Of a DNA stretch of 45,632 bases, positions 7,575 to 23,939 are shown in pieces. The translations under genes and the position numbers were made by a program. This stretch comes from Campylobacterota bacterium (lineage in GTDB: Bacteria > Campylobacterota > Campylobacteria > Campylobacterales > JAADDX01). The stretch is from NCBI GenBank assembly GCA_013153685.1, contig JAADDX010000083.1, positions 1-45,632 on the forward strand, written 5' to 3'. The notes under the pieces are model-generated. The model saw only the letters and a list, made by a program, of their open reading frames with translations. It ran no database searches and was not told where the DNA came from. Every line of letters begins with the position of its first letter. Positions within the stretch are counted from its first letter, which is position 1.

Positions 7575-9237
7575 TTGGCAAAGATGTAATTTCCGGTCTA
7601 TCTAATACGTATTCTAATTCATAGATGTTATTAAGGATGTATTCAAAGTCCTCGATCTCCTCTGTGTTAGCCGCGATCAACAATCTATCGCCAATTTGAA
7701 TTTCCGTATCATTAGATGGAATCAATACTTTATTTCTATCTCTCTCTAACAACAAGTATACTATTTTGAGCGTATCTTTTCTGTTGGCTCTTGAGCGTTT
7801 TAATTCACCTAGCGTAATACTCTCACCACTTTGCAATCTTCTATGCAACGCATACGCATGATTTTTATCTATCGTTGTCTCATAATATAGTGGATTATCA
7901 CCGATAATTGTTAGCAACTTAGCTACGATAACTTGTCCTAAATGGTCATTTCTTCTATCTTTTACAGTATTTAAGAAATCATTTACCACCGGTCTTGATA
8001 TGATATTGATAGTATAATCAGACAATACTTTCTCTAAAATATAGATCCTATCCATATGTGCCGCTTCAAAAATCGCCGCATCATCTAGTGAATTTTCTCT
8101 TGCGATAGCATAAATATTTGGATTAATCTCTTTGGCTTTATTTAGCAAAGTTAGATTTAGCATATCATCACTTGTAGCAGCAATAATAGCTTCAAAAGTC
8201 TCTAGCTGGAACTGTTGCAATATTTTCTGATCTTCTTCATCACCAAATACCATACTACCCTTCTCTTCTAAATAATCCTTAGGGTCGATATTATATATCT
8301 CATACTCAATATTCGCTTTTGCTAAAGCATCAGCAATAGCACTTCCCATTCTTCCATGACCGCAAATTAAATATTTCCCTTTTGGCAAGAAATCATGATC
8401 ATCAAAAAACAAACTTTGCCCATACACCCATCTCTCTAGTATATATACATAAGGTGTGACGATGTTGTTGTATATTTGACTTGCTACGATTGTAAATGGG
8501 TTGAGAATATGTTCAATCCCAATTGAGTTGTAATAATTGATGTGATTTTTTGATGTAGCTTTTACTATAATGTCTATATCGTGATTTAACAATCTAGCTA
8601 CGGTGATAGCTTGCATGTTTTTCGCATCTTTGTCAAATAATGAAATAATCCCTTTACAATTTGGCAAATCAATCCCCGCTAACGTTAGTATATTCTCACT
8701 AGTAGGATTTCCTACTATAGATGGCACATAAGGGTAGAAATCTTCTAGATTGAGCTCTTCTATATGCAATGGATTTTCATCTATTACTACAAATCTACTA
8801 TACCCATTGGCTTCTTCGATAATATTTTTGGTTACTTTTGTATATTCAAGTATGATATAAAAGTCCTCTTTGAGATTTTTTACTTGTTTTCTAAAACGGT
8901 TGATTTTGATTGCTTTTTGTAACGCTTCATCTTGGATTAGAGATATAATAGCCCCAATAGCATAAAACCATCCTACAACAGACAAATAAATAGCCACACT
9001 CACCCATAATCTTTGAGCATAAGTAAATGTATAAGGAGTCTCACCAAATCCAATAGTAGTAGCCATATAACTAACAAAATAAAACGCATCAAAAAAATTC
9101 AAATGATATACATGTCCATGATTATCAACCCCAGGGACCATAATCATCCCTATGATAGAGATTGAAAAGGTGATGAGTATTACTAAAAACGGAACCCGAA
9201 GTTTTTTTAGAACAATCCAGACTAATTGGTCATTCAT
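7558..9237 (-). CDS. Two-TM potassium channel with tandem RCK/TrkA domains
   Basis: This 559-residue protein has TM1 (about 14-35), a pore loop with filter MATTIGFGETPYT (59-71), TM2 (about 78-101), then cytoplasmic regulatory domains. A degenerate TrkA-N region spans about 125-255. A second one has the nucleotide-binding motif YLICGHGRMGSAIADAL (289-305). A TrkA-C domain lies at about 465-545. The filter TIGFGE departs from the common TVGYGD but keeps the GFG form seen in some bacterial channels. It is probably a ligand-gated K+ channel for potassium homeostasis. The preceding membrane protein stops three bases upstream, so the pair is one unit. The H. pylori channel HP0490 is a likely relative. 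Confidence 0.88.
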   Translation of the reverse strand: MNDQLVWIVLKKLRVPFLVILITFSISIIGMIMVPGVDNHGHVYHLNFFDAFYFVSYMATTIGFGETPYTFTYAQRLWVSVAIYLSVVGWFYAIGAIISLIQDEALQKAIKINRFRKQVKNLKEDFYIILEYTKVTKNIIEEANGYSRFVVIDENPLHIEELNLEDFYPYVPSIVGNPTSENILTLAGIDLPNCKGIISLFDKDAKNMQAITVARLLNHDIDIIVKATSKNHINYYNSIGIEHILNPFTIVASQIYNNIVTPYVYILERWVYGQSLFFDDHDFLPKGKYLICGHGRMGSAIADALAKANIEYEIYNIDPKDYLEEKGSMVFGDEEDQKILQQFQLETFEAIIAATSDDMLNLTLLNKAKEINPNIYAIARENSLDDAAIFEAAHMDRIYILEKVLSDYTINIISRPVVNDFLNTVKDRRNDHLGQVIVAKLLTIIGDNPLYYETTIDKNHAYALHRRLQSGESITLGELKRSRANRKDTLKIVYLLLERDRNKVLIPSNDTEIQIGDRLLIAANTEEIEDFEYILNNIYELEYVLDRPEITSLPKPQPA

Positions 9238-15818: not shown

Positions 15819-17234
15819 TTGAAAAAAGTTTTATTATTAATTCAAGGGAATGAAGCAAAACGCTTCATTCAAAGCATTATCAAAGATTATATAAATGTAG
15901 CGGAGTTTGATATCGTATATCAAAACGACGACGATATCAAAGAGGATTTCAAAGTTGATGGTATTAGCTTTTATAAAATTCCATTTAGTGATTTTACCAA
16001 GTTATCATACTTCAAAGATAAAGATTATTCCAAGGTTATCATCGTAATCAAAAACAAATTTTTCGCACTAAATGCACTAAAAGCTGTAGAGTTTTTTATC
16101 AGCAAAAATATACTCATTGAGCTGGTGAAGTTTTGGGATATCGAAATCCAAAGCAAAAATATCAACGTCATCACAATCCCGAATATTATCAATTCTACAC
16201 TCATTGATCTTTTGCCAAACGTGCCGGTGTTTGCCAGAAATATAGGGCTTGGTAAAGAGGAAATTATGGAAGTAGAGGTGCCAGCAAGTAGTGTGTTTGT
16301 ATATAGGAATGTAGAACTTTTAAACAATGAAAACAAACAAAAATGGCGAATAGTAGCTATTTATAGAAATGATAAATTGATTTTACCCAACAAAATGACT
16401 ACTATTCATCATTACGATAAATTAGTAATCATCGGGCAAGCCAATATCCTCAAAGACGTCTACAAAAGTATCAAAAAAGACGTTGGATTATTTCCAGCCC
16501 CTTATGGAAATAATATCTACTTGCTAATTGATAGAAAAACCATGAATAGATTGCAAGTAAGTAAGCTTCTAAAATCCGCAATTTATTTACATAGAAAATT
16601 AAAATCCAAAAAACTTATCATCAAAATTATCAATCCAAATCTCCATCGATTCAAAAAACTAGACAATATAGAGGGTATTGAGGTATATGTGGATTATCAC
16701 GCTACTGATATGTATGAAGTCATTATGCAAGATATACTCAAATTCAGCATCGGTATGTTTATTATCGATAACAAATTTTATTACAAAAACATAAATTTCC
16801 TCCTCAAACTCAAAAAACCATTTCTCAAAATCGGAGATGAAGAGAGTATCAAAAAATGCACTCAAAGTGCTTTGATTTTGGAAGATAGTGATGCTATTAC
16901 GGAAATATCGCCGTTGGTATTTGATATCTCAAGCCAACTAGAATATAAAATCAAATTTTTAGACATCGATCCAGAAAATGTCAAACTCACCAAAAAAGAT
17001 ATCACCATCTACTACGAAAATATCTCAAAAATGTACTATTACAAAAACGTAGAATTCATAGTCAAAAACAGCAATCCGTATTTTGAGATTCAAAAAATGC
17101 ATAATGTTTGCTTTTTTATGCCATTTAACAACAAAATCCCAAAAAACAAATTACTCTCATACTTGTTACCAAACAACACCAATATCCAACTACTACTTGA
17201 TAAATACAATCAATTCATGATACCGACAAAATGA
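15819..17234 (+). CDS. COG3400-like protein with TrkA-C (RCK-C) domain
   Basis: This 471-residue soluble protein has an N-terminal region with Rossmann-like beta-alpha pattern (KKVLLLIQGNEAKRFIQSII), then a likely TrkA-C domain at about 140-220 (EEIMEVEVPASSVFVYRNVELL through HHYDKLVIIGQ). A second alpha/beta region covers 225-345. No membrane segment is seen. TrkA-C domains bind small ligands, often cyclic nucleotides or ions, so a role in ion homeostasis is plausible but unproved. The start is TTG with AAGGA six bases upstream. Codons 10-18 carry a perfect nine-base hairpin, listed separately. Confidence 0.75.
   Translation: MKKVLLLIQGNEAKRFIQSIIKDYINVAEFDIVYQNDDDIKEDFKVDGISFYKIPFSDFTKLSYFKDKDYSKVIIVIKNKFFALNALKAVEFFISKNILIELVKFWDIEIQSKNINVITIPNIINSTLIDLLPNVPVFARNIGLGKEEIMEVEVPASSVFVYRNVELLNNENKQKWRIVAIYRNDKLILPNKMTTIHHYDKLVIIGQANILKDVYKSIKKDVGLFPAPYGNNIYLLIDRKTMNRLQVSKLLKSAIYLHRKLKSKKLIIKIINPNLHRFKKLDNIEGIEVYVDYHATDMYEVIMQDILKFSIGMFIIDNKFYYKNINFLLKLKKPFLKIGDEESIKKCTQSALILEDSDAITEISPLVFDISSQLEYKIKFLDIDPENVKLTKKDITIYYENISKMYYYKNVEFIVKNSNPYFEIQKMHNVCFFMPFNNKIPKNKLLSYLLPNNTNIQLLLDKYNQFMIPTK
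15848..15870 (+). promoter_or_regulatory. Hairpin at the 5' end of the COG3400-like coding sequence
   Basis: GAATGAAGC and GCTTCATTC pair perfectly over nine bases around loop AAAAC, beginning about 30 bases into the coding sequence. The position suits control of early elongation or mRNA processing between pyrH and this gene; function is inferred. Confidence 0.4.
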
Positions 17235-17236
17235 TA

Positions 17237-17265
17237 TTGATTTTTAAGATGAAATTCATTATAAT
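17237..17265 (+). promoter_or_regulatory. Sigma-70-type promoter of the repeat protein / kinase / MscS operon
   Basis: TTGATT, 17-base spacer, TATAAT. It ends 26 bases before the ATG at 17292, which has a strong AAGGGGAG ribosome site. No other clear promoter lies before 23338, so it likely drives the whole run. Confidence 0.65.
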
Positions 17266-17291
17266 TTGATAGTAGATTTGAAAGGGGAGAT

Positions 17292-19091
17292 ATGCGAAGA
17301 TTATTAATACTTTTAATTAGCTTAAATATTTTATTTGCTTACAAGGTAAAAACACCAAGCGATGTATTTTCATACGCAATGCTCTTGAAAAAAAAGGTAG
17401 AATACCTCAGAGCACAATCACATATCACTTCTCCATTCCCTAAAGTTCCGCCACAACACAACAAATATCCACGACACGTAATCCAAAAGGCACTAGAGAT
17501 TTTAAGCAAAATCAACTTATATAGAATCTCTAAAGGGTATGGAGCTATTTTTATCCCTCCGTATCCGGCACGGGAAATTACGCCAAGTGACGTATACGAG
17601 ATGGTAAAACGACTAGATGCGGAAGTGACGCCATTTATTAAAGATAGACAATTTCTAGAACACTTAACTCTTGTAAAATATCACAACAAAACCCCAAACG
17701 ACGTATATCAGCTATTGTGGTCTATCTCTTTGGCATTTGATAGCTTACTCGGTATTCATGGTTATACACCAACAGACGTATATGCTCTCTCACAAAAACT
17801 AGTAGAGACGGTAAAATTCATCAGAGAGACACAAAATATGTATAACATGCCATCAAAACCCAAAAAAATCCCAAATCTTCACCCAAATCATGCCTTATAC
17901 GCAAGCTATGATTTCCTCAGCAAAGTAAGAACTAGTGAGAAACACTTGTGGATAGATCCTACGGAAGTGCCTAAAAAACCACATAGAGTGATCACACCAA
18001 CAGACGTATATGATTCACTCCAATACAACATTGCAGAATTACAAAGGATCAAATACAGACTCGGTGTGGAGCGATACTTCAAGCTCAAACCGGTAAAAGG
18101 GAGTAAGACTCCAAGTGATGTAGTGCAAAATATCAAATACGCAAGAAGACTAATGCCGATTTTTTCTTTTGATAAGGAATTAATCCAATATCCTATCTCA
18201 TCACTACAAAAAACTCCTAACAACGTATATGCCGTAACAGAGGAAATACTCAAAAAAATCGATATTCTCAAAAACATCAAAGGGATAGCACAAAAAGCCA
18301 AAAATCCTCCATATATAGCGGGACTCAGACCAATCCATGCTTTCCAAAAAGCGATAGAAGCCACCGAAAAAGCGATTAGATTAAAAGTGCAAATGGGATT
18401 TTACCCTTCGGAAGTACCAACAGAACCGCTAAGGGAAATTACACCAAATGAAGTATATGAAATGGTAATTAGGCTAGATGGAATTATTACGATTTTACTA
18501 CACAAAGCCGGATACCACAAAACAGAAGAATACATCTACAAACCAAACAAAGAAATCCCATCATCAAAAACACCAAGCGATGTGTATCATAATTTGTGGT
18601 ATATCTCAAACAACCTAGACGTATTACTCGCAAGCGAATACACACCAAATGAAACATTCGCTATCTCAAATAGAATCAAAATCAAAATTTTATCTTTATT
18701 GCACAAAATGAAAATCAAAAAAAGTGCTATTGATGAGATTTTACACAAAAATATCATCCTAACCGAATCCAAAACACCAAAAGATGTATTTAATCTCACC
18801 CTTAGATTATATCACCAAATCAAACATATCCAAAAAAGAATGAATATGAGTGAGACAAGTATCATCATCCCAAAAGAGAGAATCATTACGCCAAATACCG
18901 TATATAACGCATTGCGAATCATTAATGCTAGTATCAACGAAATCCTTATTTACAAAGATATTGATGAATCTGATATCATATATCCTATGGTATTGCCAAA
19001 AGATAAGACACCAAGTGACGTATACAAAAACGTAACTAAGCTAAGAGAGTTGTTAGGATTATTATATCAAGAGAGTGATTATGAAGATTAA
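17292..19091 (+). CDS. Secreted repeat protein, 16 TPxDVY modules
   Basis: I do not recognise this 599-residue protein. A signal peptide (MRRLLILLISLNILFA, likely cut after residue 16) sends it to the periplasm. The mature part is an array of 16 modules with heads at residues 21, 59, 97, 134, 159, 197, 235, 273, 308, 346, 384, 427, 451, 495, 533 and 573. The usual step is 38 residues, with short steps of 24-25 after modules 4 and 12. Consensus is [KIY]TPxDVYxxxxxLxxxLxxL, a capped helix, then a Pro-rich linker; modules 2, 6 and 10 vary (YPRHV, HPNHA, RPIHA). There is no cysteine and no lipobox. It overlaps the kinase by 11 bases and may be its ligand-binding partner; this is inference. Confidence 0.8.
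   Translation: MRRLLILLISLNILFAYKVKTPSDVFSYAMLLKKKVEYLRAQSHITSPFPKVPPQHNKYPRHVIQKALEILSKINLYRISKGYGAIFIPPYPAREITPSDVYEMVKRLDAEVTPFIKDRQFLEHLTLVKYHNKTPNDVYQLLWSISLAFDSLLGIHGYTPTDVYALSQKLVETVKFIRETQNMYNMPSKPKKIPNLHPNHALYASYDFLSKVRTSEKHLWIDPTEVPKKPHRVITPTDVYDSLQYNIAELQRIKYRLGVERYFKLKPVKGSKTPSDVVQNIKYARRLMPIFSFDKELIQYPISSLQKTPNNVYAVTEEILKKIDILKNIKGIAQKAKNPPYIAGLRPIHAFQKAIEATEKAIRLKVQMGFYPSEVPTEPLREITPNEVYEMVIRLDGIITILLHKAGYHKTEEYIYKPNKEIPSSKTPSDVYHNLWYISNNLDVLLASEYTPNETFAISNRIKIKILSLLHKMKIKKSAIDEILHKNIILTESKTPKDVFNLTLRLYHQIKHIQKRMNMSETSIIIPKERIITPNTVYNALRIINASINEILIYKDIDESDIIYPMVLPKDKTPSDVYKNVTKLRELLGLLYQESDYED
17349..19070 (+). repeat. Coding tandem repeat, 16 modules with 8-module duplication
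   Basis: Modules 3-4-5 (ITPSDVYEMVKRLD, KTPNDVYQLLWSIS, YTPTDVYALSQKL) match modules 11-12-13 (ITPNEVYEMVIRLD, KTPSDVYHNLWYIS, YTPNETFAISNRI) in order and spacing, 287 residues apart. Module 2 likewise matches module 10. DNA identity is mostly eroded, but the 19-mer ACACCAACAGACGTATATG recurs near 17766 and 17994. Confidence 0.8.
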
Positions 19092-21126
19092 AAAAATATC
19101 TCTATCAATCAAAATTGCATTGTTAGTAATGATAGTATCGTTTTTTGGGATTGCGACATTGGCGTATATCTCGTATGACCAATCCAAAAAAATCTTTACG
19201 GATCATACAGCCCAAATCTTGGCTAAAAATATCGATCAATATACCAATTTTATACGGGAAAATATCCAGAAACTAAGATACAATATCACAATTTTCTCAT
19301 ACAATCCATCGGTAAAAGGTTTTATGAGAAGTTATTTTAACAAATACAAATATGACGAAAAAACAAACAAAACATTTAGTCAATACAAAAAAGATATCAT
19401 CGCTATGATGCTATTTACAATGAAACAAAATCCAGCATATTTTCAGATGAGAATTATTGATGCGACAAATGGAGAGGAAATTGTTAAGCTAATTAGAAAC
19501 AACAATCAAATCCAAATCGCCAAACCTCATCTCCTACAAAACAAATGGAATAGAAATTATGTGCAACAAACACTAAAAAAACGTAAAGGTTGTTATATAT
19601 CACATATTAATCTCAACAAAGAATTTCACACTATAGAATACCCAATCAAGCCAACTATTAGGATAGCAAAAGTAATCTATGCCAACGGCAAAAAAGCCGG
19701 AATTGCAGTAATTAACGCGGATATCAAGAAATTGTTTGATTTTGATAAATTGATTAAAGCCAATGATTCTACGACTTTTATCGCCAATGAGGAGGGGTAT
19801 TATCTATTCAATCCGATTCATCCAGAGAGAGAATTTGGGTTTGAATTTGGTAGAGAATACAAAATCTTCTCGCGATATCCAGAATTAAAAGAATTTTTCA
19901 CCTCAAAAGACACCACGTTTTCTTATATTTGTTACAAAAACGACAAAATCCTAGAAGCAAGGAAAGTATTTATCTATCCGGATAGATTTATAGTAGTGTT
20001 AAAAACAACGACTTCATCAGTATTCCAAAACAAAGCCAAAGCCTATACCAAAAACCTCATCATCTCCATCATACTAATTACGCTTATTATTACGCTAATT
20101 ACGACTATTTTGGTAAGAATACTTACAAGTCCTATTAGGAAATTGACCGCTATTGCCAATAAAATAGCCAGAAACAAAGGTGCAGAACACTACAATATCG
20201 ATATTAACACCAATGATGAAATCGGAGAATTGGCACATTCGTTTGATGTGATGTTAAGTGCGATAGAAGAGAGTAAAAAAGAACTAGAAAAATTTGCTGA
20301 AAAACTAGAAGAGGAAGTGGAGAAAAAGACAAAACAACTCCAAGAAGTAAACAAAAACCTACAAAAGATAGTAGAAGAAAAAGTAAAAGAATTACGACAA
20401 AAAGACCAAGCCTTAGTACAACAATCAAAAATGGCAGCCATGGGAGAGATGATAGGTGCTATTGCTCATCAATGGAGACAACCTCTTAATTCACTAGCTA
20501 TTAATATCCAAATGTTGGAAGATATGGCTGATAATGACGAACTCACTCCTGAAGTATTGCATGATTTTATAGACAAAAATATGCAAACAATTGAATTTAT
20601 GAGTAATACGATTGATGATTTTAGAAATTTCTTTAGAAAAGATAAAGAAGCTGTGCGATTTAATGTAAAAGAAGCGATTGAAAAGACGATAAACTTACAA
20701 AGAGCACAACTAAGCAATCACAACATTGAAGTGATAACCGATTTACAAGATGGTTATACTAAAGGATTCAAAAACGAATTTATGCAAGTTATACTCAACT
20801 TAATATCAAATGCAAAAGACGCTATTGAGGAATATAGAGCCAAAACTAATAACAATTTCAAAGGCAAAATCTATATACAAACAAAACCTAAGGACGATAA
20901 AATACTCATTATCATGAGAGATAATGGAGGCGGTATTGAGCCAGAAGTAGCAAATAGAATCTTTGAGCCGTATTTTACAACCAAGGATGAAGGAAAGGGG
21001 ACTGGAATGGGATTGTATATGGTAAGAGAGATTATTAATAGAATGAATGGTTCAATTAAAGTCTCTAATGCACAAGATGGAGCGGAATTTATCATAGAAT
21101 TACCAAAGGATGACGATGAGAACTGA
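19081..21126 (+). CDS. Sensor histidine kinase, dCache-HAMP-HisKA
   Basis: This 681-residue inner-membrane kinase has TM1 (10-31), a periplasmic double-Cache-like domain (about 35-320), TM2 (325-347), HAMP (348-400), a long charged coiled coil (395-445), the dimerisation domain with IAHQWRQPLNSL (phospho-acceptor His463) and a catalytic domain with NLISNAKDAI (N box), RDNGGGIEP (G1), FEPYFTTKDEGKGTGMGLYM (F and G2). The HQWRQPLN H-box is common among Campylobacterota kinases. The track starts at GTG 19075; ATG 19081 is preferred. It overlaps the repeat protein by 11 bases and the regulator by 11 bases, so the three are translationally coupled. The periplasmic domain is free to contact the repeat protein. 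Confidence 0.9.
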   Translation: MKIKKISLSIKIALLVMIVSFFGIATLAYISYDQSKKIFTDHTAQILAKNIDQYTNFIRENIQKLRYNITIFSYNPSVKGFMRSYFNKYKYDEKTNKTFSQYKKDIIAMMLFTMKQNPAYFQMRIIDATNGEEIVKLIRNNNQIQIAKPHLLQNKWNRNYVQQTLKKRKGCYISHINLNKEFHTIEYPIKPTIRIAKVIYANGKKAGIAVINADIKKLFDFDKLIKANDSTTFIANEEGYYLFNPIHPEREFGFEFGREYKIFSRYPELKEFFTSKDTTFSYICYKNDKILEARKVFIYPDRFIVVLKTTTSSVFQNKAKAYTKNLIISIILITLIITLITTILVRILTSPIRKLTAIANKIARNKGAEHYNIDINTNDEIGELAHSFDVMLSAIEESKKELEKFAEKLEEEVEKKTKQLQEVNKNLQKIVEEKVKELRQKDQALVQQSKMAAMGEMIGAIAHQWRQPLNSLAINIQMLEDMADNDELTPEVLHDFIDKNMQTIEFMSNTIDDFRNFFRKDKEAVRFNVKEAIEKTINLQRAQLSNHNIEVITDLQDGYTKGFKNEFMQVILNLISNAKDAIEEYRAKTNNNFKGKIYIQTKPKDDKILIIMRDNGGGIEPEVANRIFEPYFTTKDEGKGTGMGLYMVREIINRMNGSIKVSNAQDGAEFIIELPKDDDEN

Positions 21127-21793
21127 TGCACACCCTTATTTAAAACAACTAAAATGCCTCTATGTAGAAGATGAGGAAATGATTAGAGGCTCTTTTAGCA
21201 AACTATTACAAAAACACTTCAAAGAAGTAATCGTAGCTACAAACGGACAAGAAGGGATCCAGAAATATACCAACGATATCGATATCGTAATTACCGATAT
21301 TAGAATGCCCCAAATCAGCGGTATTGAGATGGTCAAACAAATCAAAGCCAAAAATCCTTTTGTTTTTGTGATTTTTGTAACTGTGCTAGATGATATGAAA
21401 TACCTCAAAGAAGCGATTAATCTAGGGGTTGAGGGATATATTAGCAAGCCGGTGGAATTTAATAAACTCATAGACAAGCTCAATCAACTTGCAGAAATAT
21501 TAGAACAAAAACATAACACCAAAAAACTCTTAACACTCCTTCAAGAGATTTTTGATACACAACCAACACCGATGATTTTATTACAAAATCAACAAATCAA
21601 GCTTGCAAATCAAGCTTTTAGCAAATTATTTAGCGATGTAAAAACGATAGAAGATTTGAATGAATATTTCCATATTGACTATACCAAACAAAGCCAAAGC
21701 ATCACAATCTATTACGAAAACAAAGAGATGTTGTTGAATATCTTTATTAGAAAGATTGATGATACGTTTTGTTTGATTTCGTTTAAAATCTAA
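21116..21793 (+). CDS. Response regulator, REC domain plus PAS-like output
   Basis: Residues 10-125 form a receiver domain with acidic pocket YVEDEE (Glu18, Asp19), phospho-acceptor Asp61 in ITDIRMP, Thr89 and Lys111 (SKP). The C-terminal part, about 140-225, looks PAS-like (IFDTQPTPMILLQNQQIKLANQAFSKLF). There is no helix-turn-helix, GGDEF, EAL or HD domain, so output is likely by protein contact. AAGGA is five bases before the ATG at 21116, which gives an 11-base overlap with the kinase. A direct action on the downstream channel is possible but unproved. Confidence 0.85.
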   Translation: MRTDAHPYLKQLKCLYVEDEEMIRGSFSKLLQKHFKEVIVATNGQEGIQKYTNDIDIVITDIRMPQISGIEMVKQIKAKNPFVFVIFVTVLDDMKYLKEAINLGVEGYISKPVEFNKLIDKLNQLAEILEQKHNTKKLLTLLQEIFDTQPTPMILLQNQQIKLANQAFSKLFSDVKTIEDLNEYFHIDYTKQSQSITIYYENKEMLLNIFIRKIDDTFCLISFKI

Positions 21794-21802
21794 AGGATTC
21801 GT

Positions 21803-23338
21803 GTGAGAGTATTGTGGTTATTGATGTGGGTGGTATTTTTATTTGGTGCAGATAATAACACCACAATTGAACAACTAACACACAACCTACAATCAATCGA
21901 TAAAAAACTCTATGAGATGGATTTTTATGTAAAGTATGAAAATTACCAAAAATTACTTCAATTACAACAAGCCTTGGAGCTTATCCAAAAAGAGATTATC
22001 AAGCTCAAAAGACACAGACAAACATACAAAATCAAAAAACAACTCGACACTCTCAAACTCAAACAAATCGCTTACAAAAAGCAACTCGAGATAATGAGTG
22101 GCGGTAAAGACAATTTATTTGACGCACTAATTTCCATCTCACCACTACCAAAACCGTTTAGTATAACCAATCCATTTGCGATTTTCAGTGCTATTACCTA
22201 TATCAAAAACATCCACGAAACTATCAAAAAATACGAAGAAAAATACAAAGAACTAGATACGATTATCGAACTACTAAATCAAAAAATGGCTTTATACAAA
22301 AGCCTACATAAAAATTACGCCGATATCTACCAAACTATCCAAGATTTTACTCTCGCTAAGAGTATCTATTACTCAAAGCTTATGCAGCTCAAAACAGAAG
22401 CCAAGCTGTATATCCAAACGATGAAAAATGAAGAAAAAGCACAAATACAAAAGCTTATCACATTAATTATCACCATTTTTATTTCGGTGTTTGTATTTAC
22501 ATTGGTAAAGATGGCTTTTAGGAAATATGCTAACAATCTAGAAAATATCTATCTTATCAACAAAGTGATAAATTTCCTCAATTTCTCCGTAATTGTGTTG
22601 ATTGTGGCGTTTTTTTATATCGATAACGCTACTTATTTGATCACTATCTTGGGGTTTGCATCAGCAGGGATTGCAATTGCAATGAAAGATTGGTTTATGA
22701 ATATTTTTGGTTGGTTTGTAATATTAATTACCGGAAATTTCAAAGTAGGAGATAGAATCAAAATCATACTACAAAATGGGCAAGTAGAAGTGATAGGAGA
22801 TATTATAGATATTACCGCATCAAGGATAGTTATCCACGAAGATGTCACGCTTACAACATTTATCAAAAATAGAAGAGCTGGTAGAATCATATTCGTACCA
22901 AACAATGTCATTTTCACCAATCCAATCTTCAACTACACCCACAATGGTCTAAAAGCTGTGTGGGATGGAATCGATATTACAATCACATTCGACTCTGATT
23001 ACAAAAGAGCGGAATATCTAGCTAGGGAAATTACCAAAAAATATTCCAAAGGATATACAGACATTACTAGAAAACAGCTCAACAAATTAAGAAATGTCTA
23101 CAATATCAAAAATACCCAAGTAGAACCACGAATCTACACCTTCATAGGGGAGTATGGGATTGTGATTAGTTGTTGGTATCTAAACAACTACGCCACACTC
23201 AATCTACGCAGTAAAATTAGTGCGGAAATATTAGAAGCATTTAGAAACGAGAAAAATATCAAAATCGCATACAATACCATCGATATCAAGGTCAAAGATG
23301 AACAACCTTCTCAAACTAAAACATTTATACAACCTTAA
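21803..23338 (+). CDS. MscS-family mechanosensitive channel with long N-terminal extension
   Basis: This 511-residue protein has a signal peptide (about 1-16, VVFLFGA), a periplasmic, largely coiled-coil region (about 20-210), then membrane segments at about 215-240, 252-275 and the pore helix region. The MscS core reads GFASAGIAIAMKDWFMNIFGWFVILITGNFKVGDRIKI, followed by the beta domain (GDIIDITASRIVIHED, RIIFVPNNVIFTNPIFNYT). Such channels release solutes on membrane tension. The GTG start has AAAGGA five bases upstream. Its place nine bases after the regulator, in the operon of a periplasmic repeat protein and a sensor, suggests envelope or osmotic sensing. Confidence 0.9.
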   Translation: MRVLWLLMWVVFLFGADNNTTIEQLTHNLQSIDKKLYEMDFYVKYENYQKLLQLQQALELIQKEIIKLKRHRQTYKIKKQLDTLKLKQIAYKKQLEIMSGGKDNLFDALISISPLPKPFSITNPFAIFSAITYIKNIHETIKKYEEKYKELDTIIELLNQKMALYKSLHKNYADIYQTIQDFTLAKSIYYSKLMQLKTEAKLYIQTMKNEEKAQIQKLITLIITIFISVFVFTLVKMAFRKYANNLENIYLINKVINFLNFSVIVLIVAFFYIDNATYLITILGFASAGIAIAMKDWFMNIFGWFVILITGNFKVGDRIKIILQNGQVEVIGDIIDITASRIVIHEDVTLTTFIKNRRAGRIIFVPNNVIFTNPIFNYTHNGLKAVWDGIDITITFDSDYKRAEYLAREITKKYSKGYTDITRKQLNKLRNVYNIKNTQVEPRIYTFIGEYGIVISCWYLNNYATLNLRSKISAEILEAFRNEKNIKIAYNTIDIKVKDEQPSQTKTFIQP

Positions 23339-23939
23339 ATTTCTTAATGAGGAATACTTCGAAGGGTTTGAGATACAAAACGAGATACAAATCCCAAATG
23401 ATTATGAAGAATTAAAACAACTCGTCTCAAATTGCCGCCTATGTCCTCTATCACATCAACGCACTAACGTCGTATTTGGAGAAGGCAATCTCAAAGCTCA
23501 ACTTATGCTAATAGGAGAAGCTCCTGGTAGAGAGGAAGATTTGCAAGGTAGACCGTTTGTAGGGCGAAGCGGAGAGATGCTTACTAAAATGCTCAAAAAT
23601 GTCTTGGCATTGGATAGAAGTGAGGTGTATATCGCAAATATTATCAAATGCAGACCACCATTTAATCGAGATCCAAATATGGAGGAAATTGAAAATTGCA
23701 AACATTATCTTATCAAACAAATAGAAATTATCCAACCCAAACTCATAGTTACCCTAGGAAGAGTTGCGTTTAGTGCACTTTTAAATGATACGACACCTAT
23801 TACAAAGGCTAGAGGAAAGGTGTATAGTTTTATGGGAATCAAAGTCATCCCCACATTTCACCCTAGTTATTTATTGCGAAATCCATCCAAAAAGCGGGAT
23901 GCTTTGGAGGATCTAAACTTCATCAAAAGATTTTTATAA
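23298..23939 (+). CDS. Uracil-DNA glycosylase, [4Fe-4S] family 4/5 type
   Basis: This 213-residue repair enzyme removes uracil from DNA. It has four cluster cysteines (NCRLCPL, IKCRPP, EIENCKHYL), motif 1 LIGEAPGREEDLQGRPFVGRSG and motif 3 FHPSYLLRNP. The ATG at 23298 lies inside the MscS gene (41-base overlap), with AAGG six bases before it; a later start would have to lie in the poorly conserved first 40 residues. Position after the channel operon is probably coincidental coupling. Confidence 0.92.
   Translation: MNNLLKLKHLYNLKFLNEEYFEGFEIQNEIQIPNDYEELKQLVSNCRLCPLSHQRTNVVFGEGNLKAQLMLIGEAPGREEDLQGRPFVGRSGEMLTKMLKNVLALDRSEVYIANIIKCRPPFNRDPNMEEIENCKHYLIKQIEIIQPKLIVTLGRVAFSALLNDTTPITKARGKVYSFMGIKVIPTFHPSYLLRNPSKKRDALEDLNFIKRFL

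Follow-up and report, generated by a model that had tools for sequence, protein, structure and literature searches.

An exported, all-helical repeat protein encoded in the genome of a Campylobacterota bacterium probably serves modular receptors as their periplasmic co-sensor, and the MscS-family channel gene found downstream in the same gene run is an unrelated housekeeping bystander. This reading comes from sequence comparison of a stretch of 45,632 nt (contig JAADDX010000083.1 of assembly GCA_013153685.1; the whole stretch is hereafter called the window) with homologous loci in other bacteria.

Four open reading frames lie one after another on the + strand of the window, at 17292–19091 (repeat protein), 19081–21126 (sensor histidine kinase), 21116–21793 (response regulator) and 21803–23338 (channel). 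The 11-nt overlaps described in an earlier, sequence-only reading of this DNA are exact at both the repeat gene/kinase (19081–19091) and the kinase/regulator (21116–21126) junctions, and the third junction is indeed 9 nt long, as the regulator ends at 21793 and MscS starts at 21803. An 11-nt overlap between the repeat gene and the kinase gene is also found in the orthologous loci L014, L042, L043, L067 and L070, and such coding overlaps imply that the repeat gene and its partner are coupled. The promoter proposed upstream (TTGATT-17-TATAAT, 17237–17265, + strand) is present and well placed; however, since the sequence scan returned 41 such sites against 45 expected by chance from shuffles, it can be regarded as suggestive only. 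Likewise, the four genes are arranged as described, but their run does not stop at MscS and continues into an ORF for a uracil-DNA glycosylase (UDG).

A duplicated helical repeat protein

The 599-aa product of the first gene has a signal-peptide-like N-terminus and the sixteen helical modules given in the earlier reading, each opening with a TPxDVY-like helix cap. Strict TPxx[VT][YFV] motifs occur 13 times in it, whereas 2,000 shuffles gave 0.03 on average and never more than 2. The number of modules is right, but they are really organised as two homologous halves of eight: an N-terminal unit that includes the signal peptide (17292–18206, + strand) and a C-terminal unit (18201–19088, + strand), which share 28% identity and are homologous along their length (E = 3e-30). 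The repeat unit consists of 8 helices (~290 aa), and many relatives have just one unit, with a length of about 300 aa. When the units are placed in a tree, the N-halves are monophyletic (support 1.0) and so are the C-halves (support 0.995), which indicates that a single tandem duplication produced the long form.

No match over cut-off to the repeat protein was obtained in Pfam or NCBIfam, none was obtained in PHROGs, and the PDB holds no sequence relative. The Pfam match to PexRD54_WY (E = 8e-4) lies below that family's cut-off, covers 14 residues and was taken as chance. AlphaFold2 models of the long protein (pLDDT 87, pTM 0.84) and of a short single-unit relative (pLDDT 89, pTM 0.86) are both all-helical, with one helix of ~20 residues per module, and Foldseek found no fold match for either in the PDB at E ≤ 0.001 (the best hits had E values of 0.27 with the short form and 0.56 with the long one). 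A metal- or redox-based role of cysteines was also set aside, as 55 of 83 proteins have none in the repeat region. A text search of the literature for the TPSDVY motif found no occurrence, and targeted literature searches returned no description of the family. Judged from these comparisons, the repeat protein represents a new family, absent by name from the libraries searched, that would serve a known kind of role.

Association with membrane receptors

Searches with the repeat protein or with profiles, after rereading of the loci with domain profiles and removal of duplicates, yielded 78 distinct homologues in Campylobacterota, Gammaproteobacteria, Magnetococcia, Zetaproteobacteria, Nitrospinota and one Aquificota bin. 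Most of these loci come from metagenome bins, and Nitrospinota and others were added by scanning one conserved peptide against 84,980 species genomes. The repeat protein is present in 7 of 120 relatives in the order (the window's own genome counted), 11 of 397 sampled genomes of the phylum, 21 of 369 in the class of the Thiotrichaceae genome G440, 22 of 48 in the class of the Magnetococcales genome G444, 4 of 78 in the class of the Mariprofundus genome G445 and 1 of 136 in the phylum of the Persephonella bin. This patchy presence suggests that loss and transfer shaped the distribution; the single Aquificota case may reflect either transfer or a binning error. A check for plasmid carriage gave no match. 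A gammaproteobacterial symbiont of Taylorina (G438; loci L119, L126, L131 and L132) has three repeat genes, one of which is double-length (four unit matches).

The homologues were gathered by sequence alone, and 73 of the 78 have an adjacent membrane receptor gene on the same strand, versus 19 of 203 control genes located >5 kb away. To count as adjacent, a receptor-type gene had to lie on the same strand at a distance of no more than 250 nt; 71 homologues pass directly, and the count is completed by L195, next to a chemoreceptor, and L219, next to a chemoreceptor split over two ORFs. The spacing between the two genes usually ranges from a 26-nt overlap to a 20-nt gap. The remaining five homologues comprise L186, at a contig edge, and four orphans without an adjacent receptor (L017, L018, L203 and L210), the first of which also lacks a signal peptide. 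The association thus defined is near-obligate. The partners are histidine kinases, hybrid kinases with GAF and REC domains, chemoreceptors, GGDEF or GGDEF-EAL proteins and a SpoIIE phosphatase. The sensor domain PF21623 scored over its cut-off in 9 of 9 scanned kinase or SpoIIE-type partners, the scan of the window kinase included, and among the partner chemoreceptors some carry a 4HB domain and others an extracytoplasmic region of no recognised family, so that a docking surface cannot be specific to dCache domains.

Several loci have features of their own. In the Magnetococcia loci L192, L193, L194 and L196, the repeat gene is 11–14 nt downstream of the chemoreceptor gene, not upstream. The partner chemoreceptor of L195 (4492–7473) carries a C-terminal hemerythrin domain, a possible oxygen-related link. 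At L059 (12434–14101) and its relatives, a cassette of short repeat protein and hybrid kinase is followed by a CheB-CheR fusion protein and a REC-GGDEF protein; this arrangement suggests a tie to chemotaxis-like adaptation. The SpoIIE-output cassette of L046 is preceded by a 183-aa protein (8532–9083), which we take to resemble SiaB-type regulators, and a small REC-like protein (125 aa) is encoded 10–12 nt upstream of the diverged repeat genes of L214 and L217. An apparent repeat-receptor fusion in G827 (open frame of 1716 aa) turned out to be two genes 12 nt apart (L183), and no fusion was found.

The window kinase (19081–21126, + strand, ATG start) exceeds the curated Pfam cut-offs for HATPase_c (78.6 bits), HAMP (43.8 bits), HisKA (33 bits) and the extracytoplasmic sensor PF21623 (HK_sensor_dom, dCache type; 39.1 bits), the last of which matches the Vibrio double-Cache structures 3LID and 2P7J (E = 2e-7). 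The sensors of this kinase and of most partner kinases belong with this PF21623/VP0354 double-Cache group, for which the literature searched held no description of a periplasmic partner protein.

Across 51 pairs, distances between repeat units correlate with those between sensor domains at 0.83 and with those between kinase cores at 0.65, the latter being also the value for sensor and kinase core, which share one polypeptide. The partial correlations are 0.70 for repeat protein and sensor versus 0.26 for repeat protein and kinase core (bootstrap difference 0.03–0.31), although the correlation of the kinase core can be lowered by its slower evolution relative to the sensor. The long or short type of the repeat protein, a label taken from the protein itself and not from the trees (the shortened repeat protein of L215 was left out), changes once on the sensor tree, with a clade support of 100; the tree of kinase cores needs three changes, and there the AU test rejects monophyly (p = 3.9e-5). 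For instance, in L016 both the repeat protein and the sensor are of the long type, yet the hybrid kinase core is of the short-type group, and L046, with its SpoIIE output, clusters with the hybrid-kinase systems L058/L061 in both the repeat and the sensor trees. As the repeat protein tracks the sensor over the kinase core, the pair is inherited as one input unit whose outputs are exchangeable. The link that the sequence-only reading drew between the repeat protein and the Cache kinase is supported both by the receptor pairing and by this co-evolution; the outcome that it named as a refutation, homologues mostly found apart from the kinase and channel, does not hold for the kinase, as a receptor recurs among the neighbours recorded here.

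Alternatively, the repeat protein could be an independent envelope or surface protein (adhesin or scaffold), merely co-expressed with a receptor that responds to the same condition. The four orphan copies and the repeat architecture would be compatible with this explanation, and adjacency and co-inheritance would also be expected if both proteins sensed one signal without contact. However, we consider it unlikely, given that the repeat protein follows the sensor domain rather than the kinase core and is paired with receptors of five output classes.

The truncated regulator and the neighbouring channel

The window regulator (21116–21793, + strand, ATG start) consists of a REC domain and a weak PAS domain (Pfam). 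It was first described as a regulator without a DNA-binding domain, and this holds for the REC-PAS protein encoded here, but its orthologues are REC-(PAS)-GGDEF proteins of 380–425 aa (the GGDEF domain is present in L042, L014, L015 and L074) and this domain has been lost in the window. Unlike REC-GGDEF response regulators of the WspR/PleD kind, the window regulator thus has no GGDEF after REC, and the orthologue alignment ends with the PAS domain. The genome contains 14 GGDEF matches, and the nearest relative of the window regulator is a full-length, unlinked REC-PAS-GGDEF paralogue on contig C68 (26694–27863, equivalent to L236:8695–9864), which is 49% identical to it and its sister at 0.87 in a small tree. 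We also ruled out that the lost domain is a GGDEF frame of 168 aa standing by itself on contig C80, as the C68 protein is far closer. Considering the REC-GGDEF orthologues and the GGDEF-bearing paralogue, the ancestral output of the cassette was most likely c-di-GMP, and in this genome the output has probably been passed to the C68 protein.

It is also conceivable, though we would not put it on an even footing, that the REC-PAS protein of the operon is active with a new output of its own, as a phosphate sink or through protein-protein contacts, and that this lineage has been rewired from c-di-GMP. No break interrupts the reading frame before the PAS domain is complete, the protein has retained its receiver region, and its identity to the full-length paralogue of the same genome is 49%; against this, its branch is longer than that of the paralogue (0.58 vs 0.37), as would fit relaxed constraint or decay, and the case comes from one genome only.

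The fourth gene (21803–23338, + strand, GTG start) encodes an MscS-family channel with a long N-terminal extension; its MscS beta-domain (PF00924) scores 39.6 bits (cut-off 20.2). The sequence-only reading offered, as a possible model, that this channel is the target of the kinase and regulator, with the four genes forming one module that gates or regulates it under an osmotic or peptidoglycan cue. The nine-base spacing to the regulator and the common strand would agree with such a module. However, no MscS gene was found beside the cassette at any homologous locus examined, and an MscS-like gene, mostly a long orthologue of ~500 aa, is present in 78 of 80 relatives in the order whether or not they have the repeat protein. 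In G074, the cassette and MscS are both present, on separate contigs. Furthermore, the usual gene order is TrkA-like, aroB, MscS, UDG (five relatives; aroB precedes MscS in two more), whereas in the window the cassette is placed between a TrkA_C-domain gene, on the side of 15819–17291, and MscS, in the usual place of aroB, and aroB itself is on contig C6 (L223). The nine-base spacing thus reflects the site of insertion, and the loss of GGDEF at this very junction may be its scar. We consequently regard a four-gene module as very improbable, and find no support for osmotic or peptidoglycan sensing or for adjustment of the channel by the kinase and regulator; MscS is nearly universal in the order, belongs to another gene group and is a bystander here. 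The MscS-UDG pair is conserved among order relatives, and in the window the MscS ORF overlaps the ORF of the family-4 UDG (23298–23939) by 41 nt.

The repeat protein as a putative periplasmic co-sensor

In the mechanism that we favour, the repeat protein would be exported and dock on the extracytoplasmic domain of the adjacently encoded receptor (here the dCache histidine kinase), whose signalling state it would set through ligand binding or a conformational change. In the long-form family, the kinase would phosphorylate the REC-PAS-GGDEF regulator, the maker of c-di-GMP, while elsewhere the same input unit would drive hybrid kinases, chemoreceptors, GGDEF/EAL enzymes or the SpoIIE phosphatase. 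In this genome, the C68 paralogue would probably carry the output, and the regulator copy of the operon could modulate it or compete for phosphoryl groups. Physical binding, the direction of control and the signal are what we infer.

Known systems offer parallels to this layout. LuxP-LuxQ is a receptor of the periplasmic binding protein type. In NspS-MbaA, too, a separate periplasmic protein acts with a membrane receptor (PMC8967002). Both resemble the present system in this respect and in their c-di-GMP or phosphorelay output, but rely on solute-binding-protein folds, and neither such a fold nor such a Pfam family was found in the all-helical repeat protein. In Sinorhizobium, periplasmic ExoR, reported to have a superhelical fold, physically associates with and controls the membrane histidine kinase ExoS (PMC10659215). 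The combination of a periplasmic protein and a membrane histidine kinase is common to ExoR-ExoS-ChvI and the window; the repeat protein differs in that Sel1/TPR-type repeats of the ExoR kind gave neither a Pfam match at E ≤ 0.1 nor a fold match, in that its gene adjoins the receptor gene, and in its five output classes. In the YfiR-YfiN-YfiB system of Pseudomonas, the membrane enzyme for c-di-GMP is under the control of a periplasmic protein that responds to periplasmic signals (PMC4655355), again a similar layout; the repeat protein has no match to the YfiR Pfam family, and the partners of its own family range from kinases and chemoreceptors to cyclases and a phosphatase.

The layouts of ExoR-ExoS and YfiR-YfiN (PMC10659215, PMC4655355), together with the lack of a recognisable ligand-binding fold, would also be consistent with a periplasmic inhibitor that holds the receptor in the off state and is itself relieved by titration, degradation or modification. 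This would be a sub-case of the co-sensor, differing only in sign; we deem it somewhat doubtful, as no partner protease, lipoprotein or titrator recurs in the cassettes. The broader form of the co-sensor reading is tentative: a family with a new fold would provide an exchangeable input unit for all major output classes (kinase, chemotaxis, c-di-GMP and phosphatase) in several phyla, and its double-length form, by conjecture, would be a covalent dimer that fits both sensors in a dimer of the kinase.

The signals of most bacterial receptors are unknown. Given its adjacency to receptor genes and its inheritance with their outer sensing part, the repeat protein is probably part of the sensing machinery, and probably a missing piece of how many unrelated bacteria of water and sediment sense their surroundings. 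The comparisons also show that an input unit, made up of a receptor's sensor and its partner, has been moved from one output module to another. If the co-sensor reading is true, many receptors of sulfur-oxidising, iron-oxidising, magnetotactic and vent bacteria do not work as sensors by themselves. Each receptor would then come with a small soluble protein, an immediate handle for finding its signal.
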